Origin: Flavihumibacter petaseus NBRC 106054
Lineage (GTDB): Bacteria; Bacteroidota; Bacteroidia; Chitinophagales; Chitinophagaceae
DNA length: 64,000 nt
Direction of reading: 5' to 3'
Assembly: GCF_000974785.1 (NCBI RefSeq)
Contig: NZ_BBWV01000002.1
Location: 1,054,001 to 1,118,000, forward strand
Each line of letters begins with the position of its first letter. Positions within the stretch are counted from its first letter, which is position 1. Made by a program: the position numbers and the translations under genes. This document shows, piece by piece, positions 1-34,052 of this stretch. Under the pieces are notes generated by a model. That model had not been told where the DNA came from and did not search any database. It saw only the letters and a program-made list of their open reading frames with translations.

Positions 1-139
1 CGGTAAGCACAAAGTTGTTGCCATTCACGGAAAGCTTGCTGTATTGTCCTGCCGGTATCACCCAGGTTCCGATCGCGGCGATCACTACCACGATCATCAG
101 GATGGTCAGCGGAGATAGCATGTTTTTTGTAGCGGCCAT
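1..139 (-). CDS. YfcC-family membrane carrier, 5' end only
   Basis: Only the first 46 codons are inside the window; the gene continues past base 1. The start is the ATG read leftward from 139. The visible protein begins MAATKNMLSPLTILM, then a hydrophobic helix, then TWVIPAGQYSKLSVNG. The helix followed by TW(I/V)IPAGQY is typical of the N-terminus of YfcC/DcuC-like carriers (basic amino acid or C4-dicarboxylate exchange). This is recognition of a short conserved start only, so substrate and full length are unknown. The gene lies downstream of, and on the same strand as, the metal efflux operon, but 556 bp separate them, so it probably has its own promoter. Confidence 0.6.
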   Translation of the reverse strand, partial: MAATKNMLSPLTILMIVVVIAAIGTWVIPAGQYSKLSVNGNNFVLT

Positions 140-695
140 GCACAAATCAAAACAAAAAACAGGGGAAAACAAGGATCATCCACCGAAATCGTCCACTGAA
201 ACCGCCCAGCGATTCTTTGGCGGACCGGAACGCTGTGTCCAGTTCTTTACCGGCGATGTCATTATGAGGATGATGCCGGAAACACGGTAGGATCCACTGC
301 TCAGCAGGTAGTAACTGCCATGCCGACTCCCGGCACGGGCAGCGCAAGGGTATAACTATTTTAGGAAAAGACACACTTGTTGCTTCCTGATGCTTTAAAC
401 ATGCTGGAAAATTGCTTTAAAGTTGCTTTAACCTTGCTTCAAAATAGCTTTTTCCCTATGATAACCTTGCTGCTGAAGCAAGGTTAAAGCAAGGATTAAG
501 CAACCTTTAAGCTTGTATTAAGTTAGTTTTCAGCTAGTTACAGGCAGTTGCAATCGTTAATTAATGCGCGCACTTACCTTTTATTCCTCTAAATAACTGG
601 TTCCCAGGTAGTAATTATCATTGGAAAGTGTTTTGTTATAGCATCCCGATACCGCGAAATAAAACGCAATTGCGAAAATCATCTCCACCAAACCA
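140..695. other. Intergenic region between efflux operon and YfcC-type gene
   Basis: This is the only gap over 300 bp in the window. Both flanking genes point left, so it should hold the 3' end of the efflux transcript and the promoter of the YfcC-type gene. The central part (380-546) is a phased 11-bp repeat array, described separately. Bases 140-379 and 547-695 show no convincing gene or motif. A 75-codon open frame on the minus strand (147-374) has Cys/His/Pro-rich, non-protein-like composition and was not accepted. Confidence 0.7.
380..546. repeat. Mirror-symmetric array of degenerate 11-bp phased repeats
   Basis: On the plus strand, octamers resembling TGCTTTAA start at 391, 402, 413, 424 and 435, with weaker forms at 381 and 446; the step is 11 bp (10 bp from 381 to 391). 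From 473 the same unit appears in reverse orientation (TTAAAGCA-like) at 473, 484, 495, 506, 517, 528 and 539, again every 11 bp. The two halves mirror each other around 457/458. The core is a perfect 19-bp inverted repeat, 423-441 with 474-492. The spacing puts every unit on about the same face of the helix. Function is unknown; a regulator-binding array, a long hairpin in RNA, or bent DNA are all possible. Confidence 0.7.
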
Positions 696-3600
696 TCATA
701 CCCCCGCGAGCTTCCTTTTCCTTTCCCGCAAATGAAGTGCCTTATGATACACAATGGGAAATACGAGCAGCGTGAAAAGTGTCGCCGTAACCAGGCCCCC
801 GATGATGACGATCGCGAGCGGTTTCTGGCTTTCTGAACCGATCCCGCTGCTAAGCGCCGCTGGCAGCAAACCGATAGCTGCCATCAGCGCCGTCATTACC
901 ACAGGGCGCGTTCTCACCCGGACTGCATTCACAATCGCTTCGTTTAGATCGGAAACTGTTTTCGTTTGCCGGTGGAATTCCGAGATCAGGATCACCCCGT
1001 TCTGCACGCAGATACCAAACAGCGCGATAAACCCTACGCCGGCGGAGATCCCGAAATTGATGCCGGTGACATGCAGTGCGAGAATGCCGCCGATCAGGGC
1101 AAAAGGCACATTGATGAGTACGTAAGTAGCATCTTTGGCGTTGCTGAACATGATGAACAGTAAAATGAAAATAAGCACCAGGCTGATGGGTACCACCTGC
1201 AACAACCGTTCACTCGCCCGAACCTGGTTCTCGAATTCTCCTGTCCACCCTATACGATATCCTTCCGGCAGCCGGATTCCTGCATTCAATTTGGCCTGTG
1301 CTTCAGAAATGGTGCTGCCCAGGTCTCTTTCCCGAACCGAGAATTTTACACCGATAAATCTTTTGGTATTGTCCCGGTAAATGAACGCCGGACCGGTAAC
1401 CTGGCTGACAGTCGCCACTTCCTTCAGCGGGATCCTGTTGCCCGTGATCGTGGGGATCATGAGCATCATAATATCGTCCTCATCCTGCCGGTACGCCTTG
1501 TCGTACCGGATCCGGATATCAAACTTCCTTTCGCCTTCATACTTCTGTGTGGCAGTCTTGCCGCCGATGGCCATTTCGATCACCGCCTGTGCATCGGCTT
1601 TGGTGATGCCGTAGATGGCCATCTTTTCTTCGTTCAGCAAAACACTGATCTCCGGCTGGCCGATGTTCCGCAGGATGCCCACGTCCTTGATGCCGGGTAC
1701 CGCTTTGATCTGCTCAATTACCTGGTTGGCGATCTCATCGAGTTTATCGAGATTTTCACCGTAGATCTTAACGGCATTGGAGGCATTCATGCCGGCCACC
1801 GCCTCGGCCACATTGTCAATGATCGGCTGCGAATAGTTATAGTTGATTCCCTGGAATGCCTTTAGCCGGGTGTCCATTTCTTCCACCAGGTCGTCCAGTG
1901 AAATTTTGCGCTGCCAGTTTTCTTTGGGCTTCAGGTTCACCTGCATCTGCACGTAGTAAAAACCACTCGGGTCGGTGCCGTCATTGCTTCTGCCGGTCTG
2001 GGACAAAACTCCGTTCACTTCCGGGAACTGCATCAGTTCTTTCCGCAGTACGCGCACCATCTCTACAGTTTTCGGCAGGGAATAGCTCATCGGCATTTTG
2101 GCTTCCACCCATAGGGCACCTTCGTTGAGCTGGGGAAGAAATTCACTGCCGAGCCAGCGGGTGGAAAAAATCGTCAGCACAAAAGCAGCTGCCGCAACCA
2201 GCAGCGTCAGTTTTTTGTGTGTGAATGTCCATCGGAAGGCACTGACAACCAGTGCATTGACATTGCGGGTGAAGAAATTGTCTTTCTCACGAACGTTCCT
2301 GCGTAGCAGGAGGGAGGATAGCACCGGTACAATCGTCAGCGTAAAGAGCAGTGCACCCAGCAGGGCAAAGCCAAGCGTCCAGGCAAGCGGCGAAAACATT
2401 TTTCCTTCTACTTTTTCGAAAGAGAAAATGGGCAGGAGTGCCGCTATGATGATCAGCTTGGAAAAGAAAATTGCCTTTCCCATCTGAGTGCCGGTGGTTT
2501 TGATCAGGCCCATTTTAGCCAGGCTATTGAATCGTTTCATGCCCACCTGGTGGGCCTTATGGTCGAGTGCTACAAAGATTCCCTCTACCATCACTACCGC
2601 ACCGTCAATAATGATTCCGAAATCTATAGCGCCCAGCGACAGCAGGTTTGCGCTCATGCCCCTGAGTTTCAGCATCAGGAAGGAGAACAGCAGGGAAAGC
2701 GGTATGACCACTGCCACGATAACGGTCGTGCGCCAGTCGGCCATGAACAGGAATACCATTACCGTTACCAGCACGATACCTTCCACGAGGTTGTGCATGA
2801 CCGTTTTGGTGCAATAGGCCATCAGGTTGTCGCGGTCGTAAAAGGTTTCCATTTTCACGTCAGACGGAAGAATGCCATTGTTCAGTTCGTGGATCTTTTC
2901 CTTCACCCTGCCCAGCACTTCGCCGGGGTTTTCGCCTTTGCGCATGACAATGATGCCTTCAACCACATCATCGTCATGGTTTAGGCCAACCTGGCCCACC
3001 CGCGGTGCGCTCGCTTCGGAGACGGTGGCTACATGTTTTACCAGCAGCGGGTTGCCGTTAAAAATATCAACAATGGTATTTTCAATATCCGACCGGTTGT
3101 CCAGCAACCCGATGCCCCGCACGACGTACGCCTGGCCGTTCTTCTCGATCACATCACCACCAACATTGAGGTTGGATTTGCTGACGGCCTCAAACAATTC
3201 CAGCGGTGTCAGGTCATATTGCTGAAGCTTTACCGGGTCAACAGAGATCTCATAAATTTTTTCCTGGCCACCGAATGCGACGATATCCGCTACGCCCGGA
3301 ACGCGGCGCAATTCCCGGTCGATGGTCCAGTTCTGGATGGTCAGGAGGTCACGGGTGTCACGGGAGTTGCTTTTCAGCACGTAACGGAAGATTTCGCCGG
3401 TGGGGCCGTACGGCGGTTGTACATCCGGTTCGACGCCATCAGGCAGAGACACATTCCGCAACTGGTTACTGACCTGTTGCCTTGCAAAAAAGTCCTCCAC
3501 ATCATCTTCGAAAATGATCTTGATCACCGACAGTCCGAACATGGTAATGCTGCGCACATTGGTCTTTCGCTGAACGCTGTTCATGGCGATCTCAACCGGC

Positions 3601-3809
3601 GTGGTTACAAACCGCTCAACTTCCTCTGCGCTGCGGCCGTTCCATTCCGTAACAATGATGATCTGGGTATTGGTCACATCAGGGAACGCTTCGATGGGAA
3701 TTTTGACAAAGCTGAATATTCCGGCAATCACGAGTATGCCGACCCAGAAAAAAGTGAAGAATTTGTTCCGGAGGGAAAAAGAGATTATGTTTCGAATAAA
3801 GCCATTCAT
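696..3809 (-). CDS. czcA: Heavy-metal efflux RND permease, CzcA type
   Basis: Inner-membrane proton-driven pump of the HME-RND family, exporting divalent metal ions through a CzcCBA tripartite complex. The length of 1037 residues is normal. The first helix (about 15-34) is followed by the FPDVTNTQI porter region typical of CzcA/CusA. In transmembrane segment 4 the acidic proton-relay motif is visible as DFGIIIDGAVVMVEG, giving D396, D402 and E409; this DFG...D...E form is CzcA-like rather than the CusA form. The residue after E409 is Gly where Asn is usual. It is the last gene of a leftward operon, 4 bp after the adaptor gene. The exact metal (Zn, Co, Cd or Ni) cannot be read from sequence. 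Confidence 0.93.
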   Translation of the reverse strand: MNGFIRNIISFSLRNKFFTFFWVGILVIAGIFSFVKIPIEAFPDVTNTQIIIVTEWNGRSAEEVERFVTTPVEIAMNSVQRKTNVRSITMFGLSVIKIIFEDDVEDFFARQQVSNQLRNVSLPDGVEPDVQPPYGPTGEIFRYVLKSNSRDTRDLLTIQNWTIDRELRRVPGVADIVAFGGQEKIYEISVDPVKLQQYDLTPLELFEAVSKSNLNVGGDVIEKNGQAYVVRGIGLLDNRSDIENTIVDIFNGNPLLVKHVATVSEASAPRVGQVGLNHDDDVVEGIIVMRKGENPGEVLGRVKEKIHELNNGILPSDVKMETFYDRDNLMAYCTKTVMHNLVEGIVLVTVMVFLFMADWRTTVIVAVVIPLSLLFSFLMLKLRGMSANLLSLGAIDFGIIIDGAVVMVEGIFVALDHKAHQVGMKRFNSLAKMGLIKTTGTQMGKAIFFSKLIIIAALLPIFSFEKVEGKMFSPLAWTLGFALLGALLFTLTIVPVLSSLLLRRNVREKDNFFTRNVNALVVSAFRWTFTHKKLTLLVAAAAFVLTIFSTRWLGSEFLPQLNEGALWVEAKMPMSYSLPKTVEMVRVLRKELMQFPEVNGVLSQTGRSNDGTDPSGFYYVQMQVNLKPKENWQRKISLDDLVEEMDTRLKAFQGINYNYSQPIIDNVAEAVAGMNASNAVKIYGENLDKLDEIANQVIEQIKAVPGIKDVGILRNIGQPEISVLLNEEKMAIYGITKADAQAVIEMAIGGKTATQKYEGERKFDIRIRYDKAYRQDEDDIMMLMIPTITGNRIPLKEVATVSQVTGPAFIYRDNTKRFIGVKFSVRERDLGSTISEAQAKLNAGIRLPEGYRIGWTGEFENQVRASERLLQVVPISLVLIFILLFIMFSNAKDATYVLINVPFALIGGILALHVTGINFGISAGVGFIALFGICVQNGVILISEFHRQTKTVSDLNEAIVNAVRVRTRPVVMTALMAAIGLLPAALSSGIGSESQKPLAIVIIGGLVTATLFTLLVFPIVYHKALHLRERKRKLAGV

Positions 3810-3813
3810 GGGG

Positions 3814-4917
3814 TCAGTCGTTTATCGCGTCATAGATCAGCAAACCATTCTTTGAAATCACTGTTTCACCGGCTGCGAGGCCGCTGCTGATGTAGGTGAC
3901 ATCATTCAGCTGGCTGTGCAGCTCAACCTGGCGGGTCTCGATATTCTGCCGGTCTTTGAAGATCATTACCCAGTATTTGCTTTTGTCGAAAATGATTGCG
4001 GAGGTGGGCACTGCCACCTTCTTCTCAGGTTCGGCGTAACGCACGTTAACCGTGCAGTTCATATCCGGCTTCAGTTTGAAGTCGTGGTTGGGAATGCGCA
4101 CCCTGATCTTCATCGCCTTAGTGGCCGGATCGATCAGGCTATAGATCTTTTCAACCTTTCCCTGGTAATTCAGGTCGGGAAATGCAACCGTATTAACGAG
4201 TACATCATAATTTTCCTTTATGCGGGGAATGTCGGCTTCGTTTACATTCGCCACTGCCCAGATCTCGTTCATTTCGGCAATGGAAAAAAGCGGTTCATTT
4301 TCATCGGAGCGCAGGAGTTCGTTGATGTTGATGTTTTTCGTTACCACGAATCCGCTGATCGGTGCAACGACGTCGAAAATGGATCCCGCTTTCAGCCGGT
4401 AAATTTTGTAGATCTCGTTGATCCGGTTCAGCCTTGCTTTTGCCTTTTGCAGTTCGGTTTCTGCTGCGGCAACATCCTTTTCAGAATTGAGTTTGCCGGA
4501 GAAAAGGTCTTGTTGCACCCGGAGGTTTTTCTCAGCGATCACAAGATCATTGGCGGCATCCAGTTTTTCCTGCTGGAAGGTTGCCACTTCACTGCTCTGT
4601 AAAACGGCTAGGAGTTGCCCCTGGCTGACACGATCTCCCAGGCCAACATTGATGGATTTTACCACACCACTCAGTACCGAGTACACCTGCGCGGTCTTGT
4701 TGTTGTCAGTGGCGATCTTGCCAAACAACCTGATCTCATTTTTCACCTGCTGCAGTTCAGCATTAATGAATGCACACTGGCGGTACATGGTGTCACTCAT
4801 GGAAAAGGCGACTGCTGTTTCTTCCATTTTTCGCGATTTGCAGCCGGCCAGAAGAAATAGCATCATTGCGGCCACCAGGATGGTCAGTGTGGCACGGGTA
4901 GTAATTGTATAATGCAT
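3814..4917 (-). CDS. RND efflux periplasmic adaptor lipoprotein, CzcB/CusB type
   Basis: Membrane fusion protein that links the RND pump to the outer-membrane channel. The N-terminus has a hydrophobic segment ending in LLAGC, so it is probably lipidated at Cys26. Then come a biotinyl-lipoyl-like half (VYSVLSGVVKSINVGLGDRVSQGQLLAVL), a long alpha-helical hairpin (about 110-175), the second lipoyl half (APISGFVVTKNININELL) and a beta-barrel domain. The 367-residue length fits the family. It sits between the TolC-like gene (21 bp upstream) and the permease (4 bp downstream), so the three are co-transcribed. No His/Met-rich metal-binding N-terminal extension is seen. Confidence 0.9.
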   Translation of the reverse strand: MHYTITTRATLTILVAAMMLFLLAGCKSRKMEETAVAFSMSDTMYRQCAFINAELQQVKNEIRLFGKIATDNNKTAQVYSVLSGVVKSINVGLGDRVSQGQLLAVLQSSEVATFQQEKLDAANDLVIAEKNLRVQQDLFSGKLNSEKDVAAAETELQKAKARLNRINEIYKIYRLKAGSIFDVVAPISGFVVTKNININELLRSDENEPLFSIAEMNEIWAVANVNEADIPRIKENYDVLVNTVAFPDLNYQGKVEKIYSLIDPATKAMKIRVRIPNHDFKLKPDMNCTVNVRYAEPEKKVAVPTSAIIFDKSKYWVMIFKDRQNIETRQVELHSQLNDVTYISSGLAAGETVISKNGLLIYDAIND

Positions 4918-6275: not shown

Positions 6276-7632
6276 GCAGTTGAATAAGAAAGGTGTTGAG
6301 GTGATCATTGGTGGCGGCATAACTGATGGTGCCGCCGTGAAGAGAAATGATTTTTTTTGTCAGTACCAGTCCCAGTCCGAAGCCAATCTTTCCCCGGCTG
6401 TTTTCCCCGCGAAAGAAGTGGTCAAAGAGGAACTTCTCTTCCTCGTTTGATAATGTTTTACCCCTGTTCATCACGGCTATGTGTACACTATTGAATTCCC
6501 GGCTGTTGAATTGTATTTCCGCCCGGTTGTTGCTGCTGTAGGCGATGCAGTTGCCCAGCAGGTTCTGGAATACCTGCCGGATCAGCATTTCATTGACAGC
6601 ACCGGTAAGGTTGCCAGGCGGCATGTCTTCGGGGGAATACTGCACGTCGAAATGAAAGCCAGGGTGGATCTTCGTTAGTTCCTCAATCGCGTCGAATGCA
6701 ATTTCGTCTATTCTTTTCGGCTCCTTCCGGAGGGGTTGCCCGGAATCTGATTTGGAGATCTCCAGCAGTACGTTGATCACATCTGCGAGGGATTTTGTTT
6801 TGTCGATCTGCTGATCCAGTGCGTTCCTGGTGATTTCGCCGGTAGCCTGATTTTTGATCACTTCCAGCTCTGATACCAGCACGGCAACCGGCGTTTTCAG
6901 CTGGTGCGAAATATGGTGTATGGAATGTTTCTGGAAAGCAAATGCTTCCCGGGTGCGGTCTGCGAGTTCCTGGAACTTTTCGTTGAGGTAGTTGATTTCA
7001 TGCGTGGTGGTATGCAGAACGGGAATATGTTCCTGCTCACCCACCTGGTAACGACCCAGCAGGTTAGCCAGCCGGTCGATGGGTTTCGAAATTCTGCCGG
7101 CGAGGAATAATGAAACCAGCAGGACGGCCAGGGTGATGGCTGCAAAAACAATAAAAAGGATATTGCGGAGATAGGTCAGCTTCAGGTAGCCAAATTTGTC
7201 GTAGGCTTTGCTTATTCCGTAGAAGTATTTGCTACCCGATTTGAAATAAATGGCAACCACATCGTACTGGCCGTCTTTTCTTTCGATCCAGTTGTTGTTG
7301 ATGGAAAGGTTGTTGAGGAGATCATTGGAGTAACTGATCGGCAGGTCATCCAGGCTGGAATAAATGAGCTTCCTGCTGTTGTCAAAGATGAGCAATTTTT
7401 CGTCCAGCAGCGAATTCAGGGTCATCCGGTCGATTGCTTCCGCCAGGTCTTTGTCAGTTTTTTCCACTTCTGCAATGAAATGGAGGGTACTGGTGATCTT
7501 TTCTTTCTGCCGTTGCTGGAATTCTTCTTCACGATAGGAGGAAAACAGGAGGTAGATGATGAACAGCGCGATGGCGGTCAGCAGGGTGACAGTTGCGGAA
7601 AAATATACCAGTATTTTATTCCTGATCTTCAT
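6265..7632 (-). CDS. Sensor histidine kinase of the metal efflux operon
   Basis: Membrane kinase expected to sense periplasmic metal and phosphorylate the regulator encoded just before it. Transmembrane helices are at about 8-30 and 158-178, bounding a periplasmic region of about 125 residues. A HAMP linker follows (AGRISKPIDRLANLLG). The phospho-acceptor is H243 in HHISHQLKTPV. The C-terminal ATPase domain shows the N box (FQNLLGNCIAYS) and the G2 box (KIGFGLGLVLTKKI). The 455-residue length is normal for CusS/CzcS-like kinases. Its ATG overlaps the regulator stop by 4 bp, which implies translational coupling. Confidence 0.9.
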   Translation of the reverse strand: MKIRNKILVYFSATVTLLTAIALFIIYLLFSSYREEEFQQRQKEKITSTLHFIAEVEKTDKDLAEAIDRMTLNSLLDEKLLIFDNSRKLIYSSLDDLPISYSNDLLNNLSINNNWIERKDGQYDVVAIYFKSGSKYFYGISKAYDKFGYLKLTYLRNILFIVFAAITLAVLLVSLFLAGRISKPIDRLANLLGRYQVGEQEHIPVLHTTTHEINYLNEKFQELADRTREAFAFQKHSIHHISHQLKTPVAVLVSELEVIKNQATGEITRNALDQQIDKTKSLADVINVLLEISKSDSGQPLRKEPKRIDEIAFDAIEELTKIHPGFHFDVQYSPEDMPPGNLTGAVNEMLIRQVFQNLLGNCIAYSSNNRAEIQFNSREFNSVHIAVMNRGKTLSNEEEKFLFDHFFRGENSRGKIGFGLGLVLTKKIISLHGGTISYAATNDHLNTFLIQLPLS

Positions 7633-8315
7633 TCAGCTTCGAGGTAGTAGCCGTATCCGACCCTGGTTTTGATCGTGTTTTTGCCGAAAGGTTTGTCAAG
7701 TTTGTTCCGAAGGAAGTTTACATAAACCTCAATGGTGTTCGTATTGGTATCAAAGGCGGTACCCCAGATGGCTTTGATCAGTTCCTGCTTGGATACGATT
7801 TCTCCTTTTCGTTCGCAGAGCATTTCAAGAACCTGGTATTCCCTGGGGGTTAGTGTCACTTCGCTATCCCGGCGAAAAACCTTTTTGGTTTTAGGATAAA
7901 TAACGATATCGTCTGCAATGAGTGTTTCATTGTCTTTACCGGATGTTGCACCGGACCTGTACCGCCTGAGCAGTGCCTGTGTGCGGAGGATCAGTTCACG
8001 CAGGTAGAAGGGTTTAGTGAGGTAGTCGTCTGCGCCACAGTCGTAGCCTTTCACTTTGTCATCCAGCTCACTAAAAGCGGTGAGGAGGAGAACAGGTGTT
8101 TCGGTATTGTGTTTCCTGAAGTCGCGGCATAAATCGAAACCGGTTTTTCCCGGGAGGTTAATGTCCATGATCACGCAGTCGAATTGTTCCCTGCGGAGCA
8201 TCCTGTCGGCTAGCTGACCGTCGAATACGCCTTCTGCGGGCATGTTTTCTGCACGGAGTGCGTCGATGATGTTCTTGTTCAGAATGGCGTCGTCTTCAAT
8301 AACCAGGATCCCCAT
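7629..8315 (-). CDS. OmpR-family response regulator of the metal efflux operon
   Basis: A 228-residue regulator with a receiver domain (about 1-115; acidic pocket E7-D8-D9, phospho-acceptor D51 in VIMDINLPGKTGFD, conserved Lys in LTKPFY) and a C-terminal winged helix (about 130-226; LTPREYQVLEMLCERKGE, then IEVYVNFLRNKLDK). It is the first gene of the leftward cluster regulator-kinase-channel-adaptor-pump and resembles CusR/CzcR. The phased TTTAAG repeats before the channel gene are a plausible target. No similar repeat was seen in the 200 bp upstream of this gene itself. Confidence 0.92.
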   Translation of the reverse strand: MGILVIEDDAILNKNIIDALRAENMPAEGVFDGQLADRMLRREQFDCVIMDINLPGKTGFDLCRDFRKHNTETPVLLLTAFSELDDKVKGYDCGADDYLTKPFYLRELILRTQALLRRYRSGATSGKDNETLIADDIVIYPKTKKVFRRDSEVTLTPREYQVLEMLCERKGEIVSKQELIKAIWGTAFDTNTNTIEVYVNFLRNKLDKPFGKNTIKTRVGYGYYLEAE

Positions 8316-31974: not shown

Positions 31975-32937
31975 ATGAAAAGCATAATGCTGATACCTGC
32001 CTTAATGGTTCTGCTTGGCTCCTGCAGCCAGCCTTCGGGAACTGCTGTCCGGCTGAATGCAGATAAAGGCAAACAGGATACCATCATCTGCTCGCCTGCC
32101 GGTAATCCCATCGATTTTACCGTTATAGAAAAAATAACAGGTCTGAAAGGTATATCCAAAAATGGGGAGTATAAAATCACCGTGCCGCAAAATGACCTGA
32201 AAGTGGTCGTCGATGGATTCAAAATAATCCCGCCAATGGGTTTGGGAAGCTGGGTGGCTTTCACACCCTGCCGGCAGGAGGTAATGGTCATGGGTGATAT
32301 TATCCTGGCAGAAAATGACCTTCAGCCCGTACAGCAGGAAGTTATCCGGCAGGGTCTTGCGATCACAGCCATACACAATCACTTCGTGCGCAACCACCCG
32401 AATGTGTTGTACATGCATATTGATGGTCGCGGCAACCTTGAAAAAATGGCCGGTTGTGTGAAGGCTGTATTGGATAAAGTAAAAACTTTAAGGGGAGGTG
32501 ATCCTGCGGCTGTAAAGGCAGACAGCGTGGTGAATACCCTGAATACAGCCAGTTTGGATAATATCCTTGGCTATAAGGGAGAGATGAGCAAAGGTGTTTA
32601 CAAGTATACGATCGGCAGGCCGGATGTGCCTTTGCAGGAGCATGGTATTCCGGTCAGCGCTTTCATTGGCTTTAATACCTGGGCGGCGTGGCAGGGTACA
32701 CCTGAAAAAGCTGCAGTTGCCGGCGATTTCACCATGCTGGAAGAGGAGGTGCAGCCAGTGATCAGAACGCTGATCAGTAGCGGAATTGAAGTAGTCGCTG
32801 TTCACAACCACATGGTCCAGGAAACACCCAAAGTGTTCTTTCTGCACTATTGGGGAACAGGTGATGCACAGCAACTGGCCAGGGCGTTAAGAGCGGCATT
32901 GAATCAGTGTGGAAAAAAAACGGGGCATCAAAGCTGA
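31975..32937 (+). CDS. Lipoprotein with two DUF1259 (LppY/LpqO-like) domains
   Basis: A 320-residue protein; the lipobox LLGSC predicts lipidated Cys17. Two DUF1259 units follow (about 45-165 and 185-315). Each has the signature LGSWVAF/FNTWAAW, then a block with a conserved histidine pair: ITAIHNHFVRNHPNVLYMHI in the first and VVAVHNHMVQETPKVFFLHY in the second. The family is of unknown function; the repeated HNH-like histidines suggest metal or oxyanion binding, as inference. The 16-bp gap from chrA indicates one transcript, so a role in chromate tolerance is plausible. Confidence 0.88.
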   Translation: MKSIMLIPALMVLLGSCSQPSGTAVRLNADKGKQDTIICSPAGNPIDFTVIEKITGLKGISKNGEYKITVPQNDLKVVVDGFKIIPPMGLGSWVAFTPCRQEVMVMGDIILAENDLQPVQQEVIRQGLAITAIHNHFVRNHPNVLYMHIDGRGNLEKMAGCVKAVLDKVKTLRGGDPAAVKADSVVNTLNTASLDNILGYKGEMSKGVYKYTIGRPDVPLQEHGIPVSAFIGFNTWAAWQGTPEKAAVAGDFTMLEEEVQPVIRTLISSGIEVVAVHNHMVQETPKVFFLHYWGTGDAQQLARALRAALNQCGKKTGHQS

Positions 32938-33221
32938 TCCAGCTGCCGGATGATTTCCCGGGCCGGGGTTACGCCGCTGGTGCGCCAGACAACCTGCCCA
33001 TTGCGAAAGATCATCAATGTTGGCACTGACTGAACGCCGTATCGGCGCGCATAAGCGGGATTTTTATCGATGTCCATTTTCAGAACGGTGGCCTTTTCGC
33101 CGACTTTGTCTTTTACTTCCTTTAAAATCGGTGGCATCATTTTGCAGGGACCGCACCATTCTGCGAAAAAATCCACGATCACAGGCTTGTCTCCCTTGAT
33201 ATGCGTTTCGAAACTGTTCAT
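32928..33221 (-). CDS. trxA: Thioredoxin
   Basis: A 97-residue cytoplasmic thioredoxin: active site W22-C23-G24-P25-C26, with cis-Pro in SVPTLMIF. It has no signal peptide. The length is slightly below the usual 105. It reduces protein disulfides and can donate electrons to reductases such as the thioredoxin-dependent CysH type found elsewhere in this window. Its 3' end overlaps the convergent DUF1259 gene by 10 bp, so it is not part of the chromate operon. Confidence 0.93.
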   Translation of the reverse strand: MNSFETHIKGDKPVIVDFFAEWCGPCKMMPPILKEVKDKVGEKATVLKMDIDKNPAYARRYGVQSVPTLMIFRNGQVVWRTSGVTPAREIIRQLDQL

Positions 33222-33281
33222 GATTACCTGCTATTGGTGTAAAGCAATAACGCAGGTTCCGCATAATTGTTCAGGCCAGTT

Positions 33282-34052
33282 TCAGCGATTGTCCTGTCGC
33301 AACTGCTGGTTGTAGGCGGATGGCGAAACTCCGAACTGTTTGGCAAAGCTTCTGCCGAAATTGGTCTGTGACCGGAATCCTACCATTGCGGCTACTTCAA
33401 AAATTTTGTAATCGCCGGAAGCCAGCAATTCTGCCGCTCTTTTGAGCCTGCTGAGATTGATCAGCTCATGCAATGTGAGGTTGGAAAGCGATTTGATCTT
33501 CCGGTAAAGCGTCGGCCGGCTCATGTTCATTTTGCGTGCGATCATTTCGACGTCCAGTTCTTCTTCTTCGATATGTTCGTAGATAATTCCCCTGAGTGTT
33601 TCCAGGAACTGCTCGTCTGATTTCGTGTGTGCCATACTGCGGATATGCACCAACGGCGAATTGGCAAAATAGTCTTTCAGCTTGTCGCGGTTAGCCAGCA
33701 GGTTGGCCACCTGTGCCTGCAGGAATTCAGGAGAAAATGGTTTTTCGATATAGGCATCTGCCCCCAGTTCCAGCCCCTGGATCTTGCTTTGCAAAGCATT
33801 CTTGGCAGTGAGCAGCACAACGGGAATATGACTGTAATCCACGCTGCTTTTGATCAGCCGGCAAAATTCAAATCCATCCATTTCCGGCATCATCACATCT
33901 GAGATGATGAGGTGCACCGTTTGTTCCTGCAGGATGGCCAGCGCCTCTTTGCCGTTGGCGGCTTTCTGAACGGCATATCTTTCCGAAAGATCGCCGGCGA
34001 TGAAATCCAGCATTTCTTCATTGTCTTCCACGATCAGGAGGGTTGGTCTCAT
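33282..34052 (-). CDS. Response regulator with AraC-type output, arabinan locus
   Basis: A 256-residue protein: receiver (about 1-120; E9-D10, phospho-acceptor D52 in LIISDVMMPEMDGFEF, Lys in YIEKPFSPEF) joined to an AraC helix-turn-helix pair (about 150-250; DVEMIARKMNMSRPTLYRKI and YKIFEVAAMVGFRSQTNFGRSF). These are exactly the last two domains of a Bacteroidota hybrid two-component system (HTCS), here as a separate protein. The ATG overlaps the stop of the sensor kinase (ATGA). It likely activates the SusC/SusD-GH43 operon that diverges from the kinase. Confidence 0.9.
   Translation of the reverse strand: MRPTLLIVEDNEEMLDFIAGDLSERYAVQKAANGKEALAILQEQTVHLIISDVMMPEMDGFEFCRLIKSSVDYSHIPVVLLTAKNALQSKIQGLELGADAYIEKPFSPEFLQAQVANLLANRDKLKDYFANSPLVHIRSMAHTKSDEQFLETLRGIIYEHIEEEELDVEMIARKMNMSRPTLYRKIKSLSNLTLHELINLSRLKRAAELLASGDYKIFEVAAMVGFRSQTNFGRSFAKQFGVSPSAYNQQLRQDNR

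Follow-up and report, generated by a model that had tools for sequence, protein, structure and literature searches.

A multicopy intergenic element of mirrored, helically phased 11-bp units in Flavihumibacter petaseus, possibly a platform for a putative protein

What kind of element is a mirror-symmetric array of 11-bp units, found between the genes for a carrier and a pump in Flavihumibacter petaseus? The question was raised by the original prediction, made on the 64,000-nucleotide stretch of DNA analysed here (the window), where arrays phased at 11 bp were described at 380–546, mirrored around 457/458, between yfcC and czcA; a multi-site regulator platform, a bent DNA segment or a long imperfect hairpin were proposed as possible meanings. 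The identity of the neighbours is confirmed: a DcuC/YfcC-family carrier lies on the left, an AcrB-family (CzcA-like) pump on the right. The gap had also been described as the only long intergenic one; it is the longest seen in the window, but a second one, at 32937–33282 when open reading frames of at least 150 aa are considered, also exceeds 300 bp. The layout of the region is reported in Table 1.

The arrays are real. Lag-11 self-identity over 380–546 is found at 86 of 156 positions (0.55): the autocorrelation against shuffled controls, suggested along with the prediction, gave a mean of 41.6 (sd 5.7) for 5000 dinucleotide shuffles, none of which exceeded 62. Across 2000 shuffles, no lag from 5 to 30 gave more than 0.46; over 380–546, lags 22 and 33 are elevated too (0.54 and 0.50). 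Within the entire 64 kb, the best-scoring 88-bp stretches (lags 5–30) occur at lags 11 and 22, both inside this element. Period 11 is independently detected by Tandem Repeats Finder at 391–451, 476–503 and 506–539, while a repeat search places the starts of left units at 391, 402, 413 and 424 and of right units at 476, 487 and 498, and reports a 49-nt inverted repeat (393–441/474–522) with 78% complementarity. Coordinates and mirror axis hold as well: taking position 457, the T of the core's CCTAT, as anchor places the axis between the arms at 457/458. Axes moved by 5.5 bp, or by multiples of it, perform about equally well, so that only the phase is fixed and the axis is correct modulo the repeat. 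Rfam models, searched on window positions 1–1000, gave nothing above the gathering cut-off (the top one, a microRNA model, scored 25.9 bits, E 0.0035, with a cut-off of 57), and phage records contained no match.

Table 1. Position of the element, of its parts and neighbours in the window, and of the other A/B family copies in the same genome
Feature	Position	Strand	Remarks
Intergenic gap	139–696		557 bp, between carrier start (139, −) and CzcA-like pump stop (696, −)
5' end of DcuC/YfcC-family carrier gene	1..139	−	runs beyond the window to contig position 1052646
Left arm, 6–7 degenerate 11-bp units (TTGCTTTAANN)	380..451	+	from repeat periods, copies and lag-11 statistics
Central core TTCCCTATGATAACC	452..466	+	also found, at other places in the genome, with arms of families unrelated in sequence
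Single left-orientation unit adjoining the core	465..473	+	ahead of the right arm
Right arm, about 7 reverse-complement units	474..549	−	degeneracy grows outward
CzcA-like RND pump gene (ACR_tran; AcrB-family)	696..3809	−	3' end towards the element
Other A/B copies	C20:724867, C21:758714, C19:192111, C22:523208, C22:2194977, C20:933758, C21:969037		

The element is not unique: the genome contains at least 18 such intergenic copies, itself included, of about 130–210 bp, which fall into three sequence families (A/B, eight copies; C, seven; D, three, all aligned). The seven A/B copies other than the one in the window, found by a search of the own genome, are 65–84% identical; two weaker matches (L018, L019) were left out, as no array is present there. 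A single instance of family E was observed, with the core, and F-type units at three places, at one of which the core was read. In some arrays the units are unrelated to TTGCTTTAA: TTTTACCCGGA in family C, CGAGGTNNAA in F, ACAGCCGTCCT in G. When unit profiles are compared across families, only A and D clearly agree (0.71, 0.77), and family C does not. Several families with unrelated 11-bp units have in common the centre TTCCCTATGNNAACC. This core motif matches the genome 26 times with at most one mismatch, versus 3 for the reversed control, and 9 times exactly, versus 0. A flanking lag-11 score of at least 42 is found at 12 of the 26 matches, including 8 of the 9 exact ones; the highest score at other lags between 8 and 14, across all 26, is 39. 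A thirteenth match (L212, element D3), weakly periodic with a lag-11 score of 36, was placed in family D by alignment, while the remaining 13 look like chance. Elsewhere in the taxonomic family, the exact motif shows no enrichment: of 146 further genomes, 12 have 1–2 matches, and the reversed control is matched in 15.

Lag scans, which require no model of the unit, were run on parts of four genomes. In 824 kb of the own genome, a permissive threshold yields 17 arrays at lag 11, of which 14 do not lie in long open frames, and 0–3 at each of lags 10, 13, 14, 16, 17, 19, 20 and 23; further values are 1 at lag 5, 3 at lag 7, 12 at lag 8 and 10 at lag 22, double of 11, some arrays stepping by 22 bp. 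The lag-8 signal reflects, at least partly, another simple repeat. At the strictest threshold, arrays are found at lag 11 alone among 13 lags. The lag search was the first to reveal families C, F and G, which exemplify the members overlooked by repeat searches relying on sequence alone. Other repeats were encountered as well. A second intergenic repeat (GGTTTGAGGTTTGAAGTTTG-like, with a step of about 8 bp) adjoins 11-bp elements at two places (L010, about 4750–4800; C21:813284–813400), and is probably one source of the lag-8 signal. Three composite intergenic regions (C22:185284–185720, C22:8753–9100, C21:693441–693700) combine 22-bp repeats (GGGACGAGGTTGCACTTTT) with 11-bp CGAGGT units, a D-type element being additionally recorded for both of those on C22. 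Two long arrays are unmirrored: CTGGAAAGATG at C20:382396–382560 (L017), and one of about 20 units, starting at position 306 of L101, with TGCTTTAACCA/TGCTTTATCCA in blocks; both are apparently recent expansions.

As their sequences drift apart, the copies keep both the helical register and the distance between the arms. The interval separating the final left unit from the initial right one measures exactly 30 bp in 8 out of 8 readable A/B elements, namely A1–A4, three B elements, where the centre is different, and one element from F. solisilvae; A6 (L014) is not part of this count, its left arm failing the expression used. In the window element, this interval passes through the core and the single unit beside it. 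Mirrored elements of Dawidia soli, of opposite polarity and unlike in sequence, have a centre of 13 bp in seven of eight cases and of 12 in the other. When the outer 44 bp of each family C arm, anchored on the core, are compared to C1, offset 0 is the best one in 11 of 12 tests (six copies), the sole exception being the left arm of C6, at +1. Left arms match the reverse complement of right arms best at a common register in families A (r = 0.91), C (0.85), D (0.83) and E (0.58); the arms of family F are not in register about the core.

A small test, based on two pairs of copies which share flanking DNA, compared indels within and outside the elements. The L015/L016 pair features 22 substitutions and 0 indels in the element, versus 18 and 5 in the adjoining shared flank; the C5/C7 pair 26 and 1, versus 20 and 4. 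The pooled ratio is 48:1 in elements and 38:9 in paralogous flanks (Fisher p=0.007; p=0.0145 under stiffer gap costs; p=0.049 for L015/L016 alone). Elements do acquire gaps when alignments are freely gapped: the count for family C (21 pairs) is 62, with 679 substitutions, and for family A (6 pairs) it is 21, with 132. Under stiff gap costs, the counts become 12 with 805 and 2 with 171, respectively. Small as it is, the test agrees with the fixed spacings, and selection seems to maintain the 11-bp spacing, as though a putative protein were reading it.

All A/B, C and D copies examined are intergenic; they lie between convergent, tandem and divergent genes, with no single orientation. Neighbouring genes, taken here and in C. 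tropicalis as the longest open frames rather than from annotations, look functionally unrelated by eye. At one site, the element lies within about 258 bp between two convergent genes, putatively holA-like and ribF-like. In 7 of 14 congeners, both genes are found at the orthologous junction less than 30 bp apart, with no array; in the others, four have another neighbour, one (L252) is without a clear partner nearby and two (L258, L263) are unreadable. No readable congener has a lag-11 peak at this junction (maximum 46, versus 63 in the own genome), and the simplest reading would be a gain of the element in this lineage. For the comparison of target-site duplications at this site, the element ends are not placeable and the congener junctions are highly diverged; neither terminal inverted repeats nor target-site duplications shared among copies were recognised by eye in the alignments. 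An antiporter gene beside another copy (L013) was tried as a second empty-site test, and turned out to be uninformative: its congener matches, 31–58% identical, are not clearly orthologous. Just after the antiporter gene of one congener (G014, L338) lies an 11-bp array whose units resemble GGTGTTAGANA; one of its ends is mirrored over a short length, and its sequence has no relation to that of the window element. Flanking DNA is in some cases shared between copies, on the left for L015/L016 and on the right for L010/L015; one shared flank is an apparent piece of the ribF-like gene, which hints that copying is able to take neighbours along.

In other genomes, a three-unit TGCTTNAA-type pattern matches 4 of 394 members of the taxonomic family, the control matching none, and 69 stretches of a named genome collection. 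Outside the phylum, many single matches resemble chance hits or simple minisatellites, and the TGCTTNAA word common to the matches is not evidence of homology, because the pattern itself selects for it. Multicopy sets are found in Chitinophaga tropicalis (34 pattern matches), in Dawidia soli (eight clear places) and in a Fluviicola MAG, of which 11 loci were read, along with two from a Crocinitomicaceae MAG. The C. tropicalis arrays read are unmirrored, with a conserved module on one side and similar right ends; such an end module is absent, by eye, from the own-genome families. Of 19 loci scored, 17 have a callable left neighbour, and in 16 of these the array is located 5' of that gene, with the module in between (binomial p=0.0003). 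Array and module together could be a mobile promoter-like element; no such 5' bias is seen in the eleven Fluviicola loci. One C. tropicalis array (L022) is a perfect run of ATGCTTTAAAC x7. Beyond the conserved module, several loci between L063 and L124 contain a longer repeat (AATCCTG...GGTTTACA). Lag 11 is preferred in a 380-kb piece of C. tropicalis (6 arrays, with 5 at lag 22 and 0–2 elsewhere) and in F. solisilvae 3-3 (G008; 5 arrays, with 0–3 at other lags); a 400-kb piece of a congener (G012) has 1 lag-11 array and no enrichment. A separate lag scan gave concordant results for the own genome and C. tropicalis.

In a hairpin reading of the mirrored arms, transcripts, or single-stranded DNA, would fold into a long imperfect stem, with each 11-bp unit forming one A-form turn and the core forming the loop. 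The sequence is indeed foldable, as originally proposed: the + strand of the window element reaches −57 kcal/mol (z −4.5) and the − strand has a z of −3.4, nine own-genome elements range, on both strands, from −28 to −66 kcal/mol (computed without shuffles), and double changes occur in 4 of 26 and 7 of 49 pairs of the RNAalifold consensus stems. The covariation terms of RNAalifold are unfavourable (+0.83, +0.98), and arms pair with those of their own copy to the same extent as with those of other copies: 50.7 versus 52.2 of 99 positions in family C, 32.8 versus 32.9 of 55 in A, 23.0 versus 22.2 of 55 in D (C6, because of its 1-bp shift, was left out of this test and of part of the column count). 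In these families 42–55% of the mirrored positions pair, and arms slid by +11 pair as well as, or better than, unshifted ones (0.51/0.51 in C, 0.57/0.55 in A, 0.52/0.42 in D); sliding by −11 gives lower values (0.44, 0.45 and 0.27). The orientation of the elements relative to genes also varies. As no co-evolution between paired arms is seen in families A, C and D, the hairpin is not clearly the thing maintained: arm complementarity is that expected from two inverted arrays of one degenerate unit, and phase is the conserved quantity. We regard a hairpin element as unlikely. Still less credit is given to intrinsically bent or supercoil-tuned DNA, for which phased AA/TT steps would be sufficient. 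Crude phased-wedge sums, with assumed wedge values, are high in C1, C4, E1 and F1 (reached by 0 to 0.014 of shuffles), and ordinary in A2 (0.646) and in the window copy, matched by 0.515 of shuffles at 10.5 bp per turn and by 0.077 at 11. By this measure, the bending suggested for the window copy is seen in the C, E and F copies tried, and is not general.

The idea of a protein-binding platform is supported as regards helical phasing, and loses ground as regards a regulator dedicated to one site. For the latter, the window offers a candidate, an OmpR-family response regulator gene (7629–8315), which, or another factor, would control the adjacent carrier gene. OmpR/PhoB-type regulators bind direct repeats about 11 bp apart, and the 5' position of the C. 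tropicalis arrays would fit a role of this kind. Against it, copies are found between convergent genes and next to unrelated ones, unit sequences differ from family to family, and no common pathway is visible, by eye, among the C. tropicalis target genes. Conservation next to the carrier gene had been proposed as a check, and the 14 congeners searched all lack this gene; since, in addition, the element is dispersed, a regulator of this single site is most improbable. A selfish or neutral minisatellite-bearing element, comparable to BrickBuilt or BOX and with no bound protein of consequence, deserves more attention, and is a possible, if doubtful, explanation. The 11-bp step would persist merely through slippage of whole units and joint copying of the arms. 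This agrees with recent-looking perfect arrays (the sevenfold run in L022, the one at C20:382396, the roughly 20 units of L101), with the absence of the element from the junction in half of the congeners and with the unrelated look of the flanking genes. It poorly explains the fixed spacing across a non-repeated centre, the lower number of indels inside elements than in adjoining flanks, and lag 11 as the preferred long period in the genome.

The reading that we prefer, with a rough probability of 0.48, is that of a dispersed, probably non-autonomous MITE-like intergenic element, the arms of which provide a helically phased duplex platform for a putative protein. The element is multicopy, its core is common to several arm families and it is absent from the orthologous congener junction; its layout may be written as 6–9 forward 11-bp units, core, 6–9 inverted units. 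What we infer, namely the copying process, the protein and the host effect, may work as follows. A putative cooperative protein would sit on one face of the duplex, contacting a few bases per turn, and arms and core would be assembled into a dyad-symmetric nucleoprotein complex. Most simply, the protein would be a recombinase, or an accessory factor, copying the element, so that only in-phase copies would spread; alternatively, it may be a host chromosome-organising protein. In either case selection, for copying or for the host role, would remove out-of-phase copies, while unit sequence would drift in concert, via slippage in whole 11-bp steps, and the single-copy core and the geometry would persist. 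Perfect runs, in C. tropicalis as well as at C20:382396, suggest slippage. Some observations do not fit the platform easily: a conserved core with ragged ends is the opposite of what a DNA transposon usually shows; to read the unrelated units of this one genome, either several proteins or one of weak sequence specificity would be required; the arms of family F do not keep register about the core, and D3 is weakly periodic. The outward decay of units could come from neglected repeats.

A broader and more speculative proposal, to which we attach a low probability, is a class of Bacteroidota elements defined by geometry, with mirrored one-turn (11-bp) arms, fixed phase and unit turnover, read by a putative cooperative protein organising the chromosome or copying the element. 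Sequence is the usual basis for classifying intergenic repeats; in this case, what appears to be kept is the geometry, i.e. the 11-bp step and the inter-arm distance, across units which cannot be aligned. If a protein reads this geometry, the elements would be a chromosomal counterpart of plasmid iteron platforms, and a tractable target, with many natural copies and several unit sequences.

Among the matches listed in a search of open-licence literature, covering titles and abstract openings, no description of mirrored 11-bp intergenic arrays was found; the comparisons below refer to excerpts of the cited sources. REP/BIME palindromic units are dispersed, located outside genes, and form hairpins of 20–40 bp with a tagged end (PMC3733652). 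Dispersed palindromic repeats outside genes are a shared trait; as excerpted, REP/BIME units are without the phased tandem arms of the window element. They are linked to RAYT transposases, and membership of this group was rejected, no Y1_Tnp domain (PF01797) being found in the own genome (G000) or in C. tropicalis (G020); the domain is found once in G008 and eight times in G066, and its control matched in 5 of 14 genomes. In Streptococcus pneumoniae, BOX elements are described as dispersed and modular, the number of tandem modules that separate their fixed ends being variable (PMC3049150). Their likeness lies in this dispersed modular layout with tandem units. The boxB modules, of about 45 nt, are far above one helical turn, and BOX elements are not known to have mirrored arms. 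A genome-wide dinucleotide periodicity of 10–11 bp, close to the helical turn, is reported to be under selection (PMC7537859); it is a statistic of whole chromosomes, as excerpted, whereas discrete mirrored arrays are found here.

Within the excerpts consulted, the nearest element by geometry is parC of plasmid R1, which had been overlooked when the design was said to match no standard element: it comprises two sets of five 11-bp repeats, bound by ParR, one of the ribbon-helix-helix proteins (PMC9426499, PMC4949242). Both systems feature blocks of phased 11-bp repeats; parC is a plasmid centromere with direct repeats, while the present elements are chromosomal and dispersed, with inverted blocks. 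No par genes are seen beside the window element, whose neighbours are the carrier and the RND pump, and ParM (StbA_N, PF06406) matched in 0 of 4 genomes, its positive control also matching nowhere. The nearest described element found, again from excerpts, is BrickBuilt, a MITE of Porphyromonas gingivalis with 19 intergenic copies, where an imperfect tandem minisatellite of 23-nt unidirectional repeats, with predicted stem-loops and no Rfam match, is bounded by a leader and a tail ending in small inverted repeats (PMC4596501). Like BrickBuilt, the elements are found in Bacteroidota, dispersed, multicopy and intergenic, and contain a tandem minisatellite; the C. tropicalis arrays, with a conserved left module, 11-mers and similar right ends, resemble it further. 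The window element differs in its unit of 11 bp rather than 23 nt, in mirrored arms rather than repeats in one direction, in a conserved core with ends that are ragged by eye, and in the several unit sequences present in one genome. It shares with MITEs a dispersed, intergenic, multicopy occurrence and an empty site in relatives, the latter at one site. As no known system fits all tested features, the element is filed as a new form of dispersed minisatellite-bearing element.
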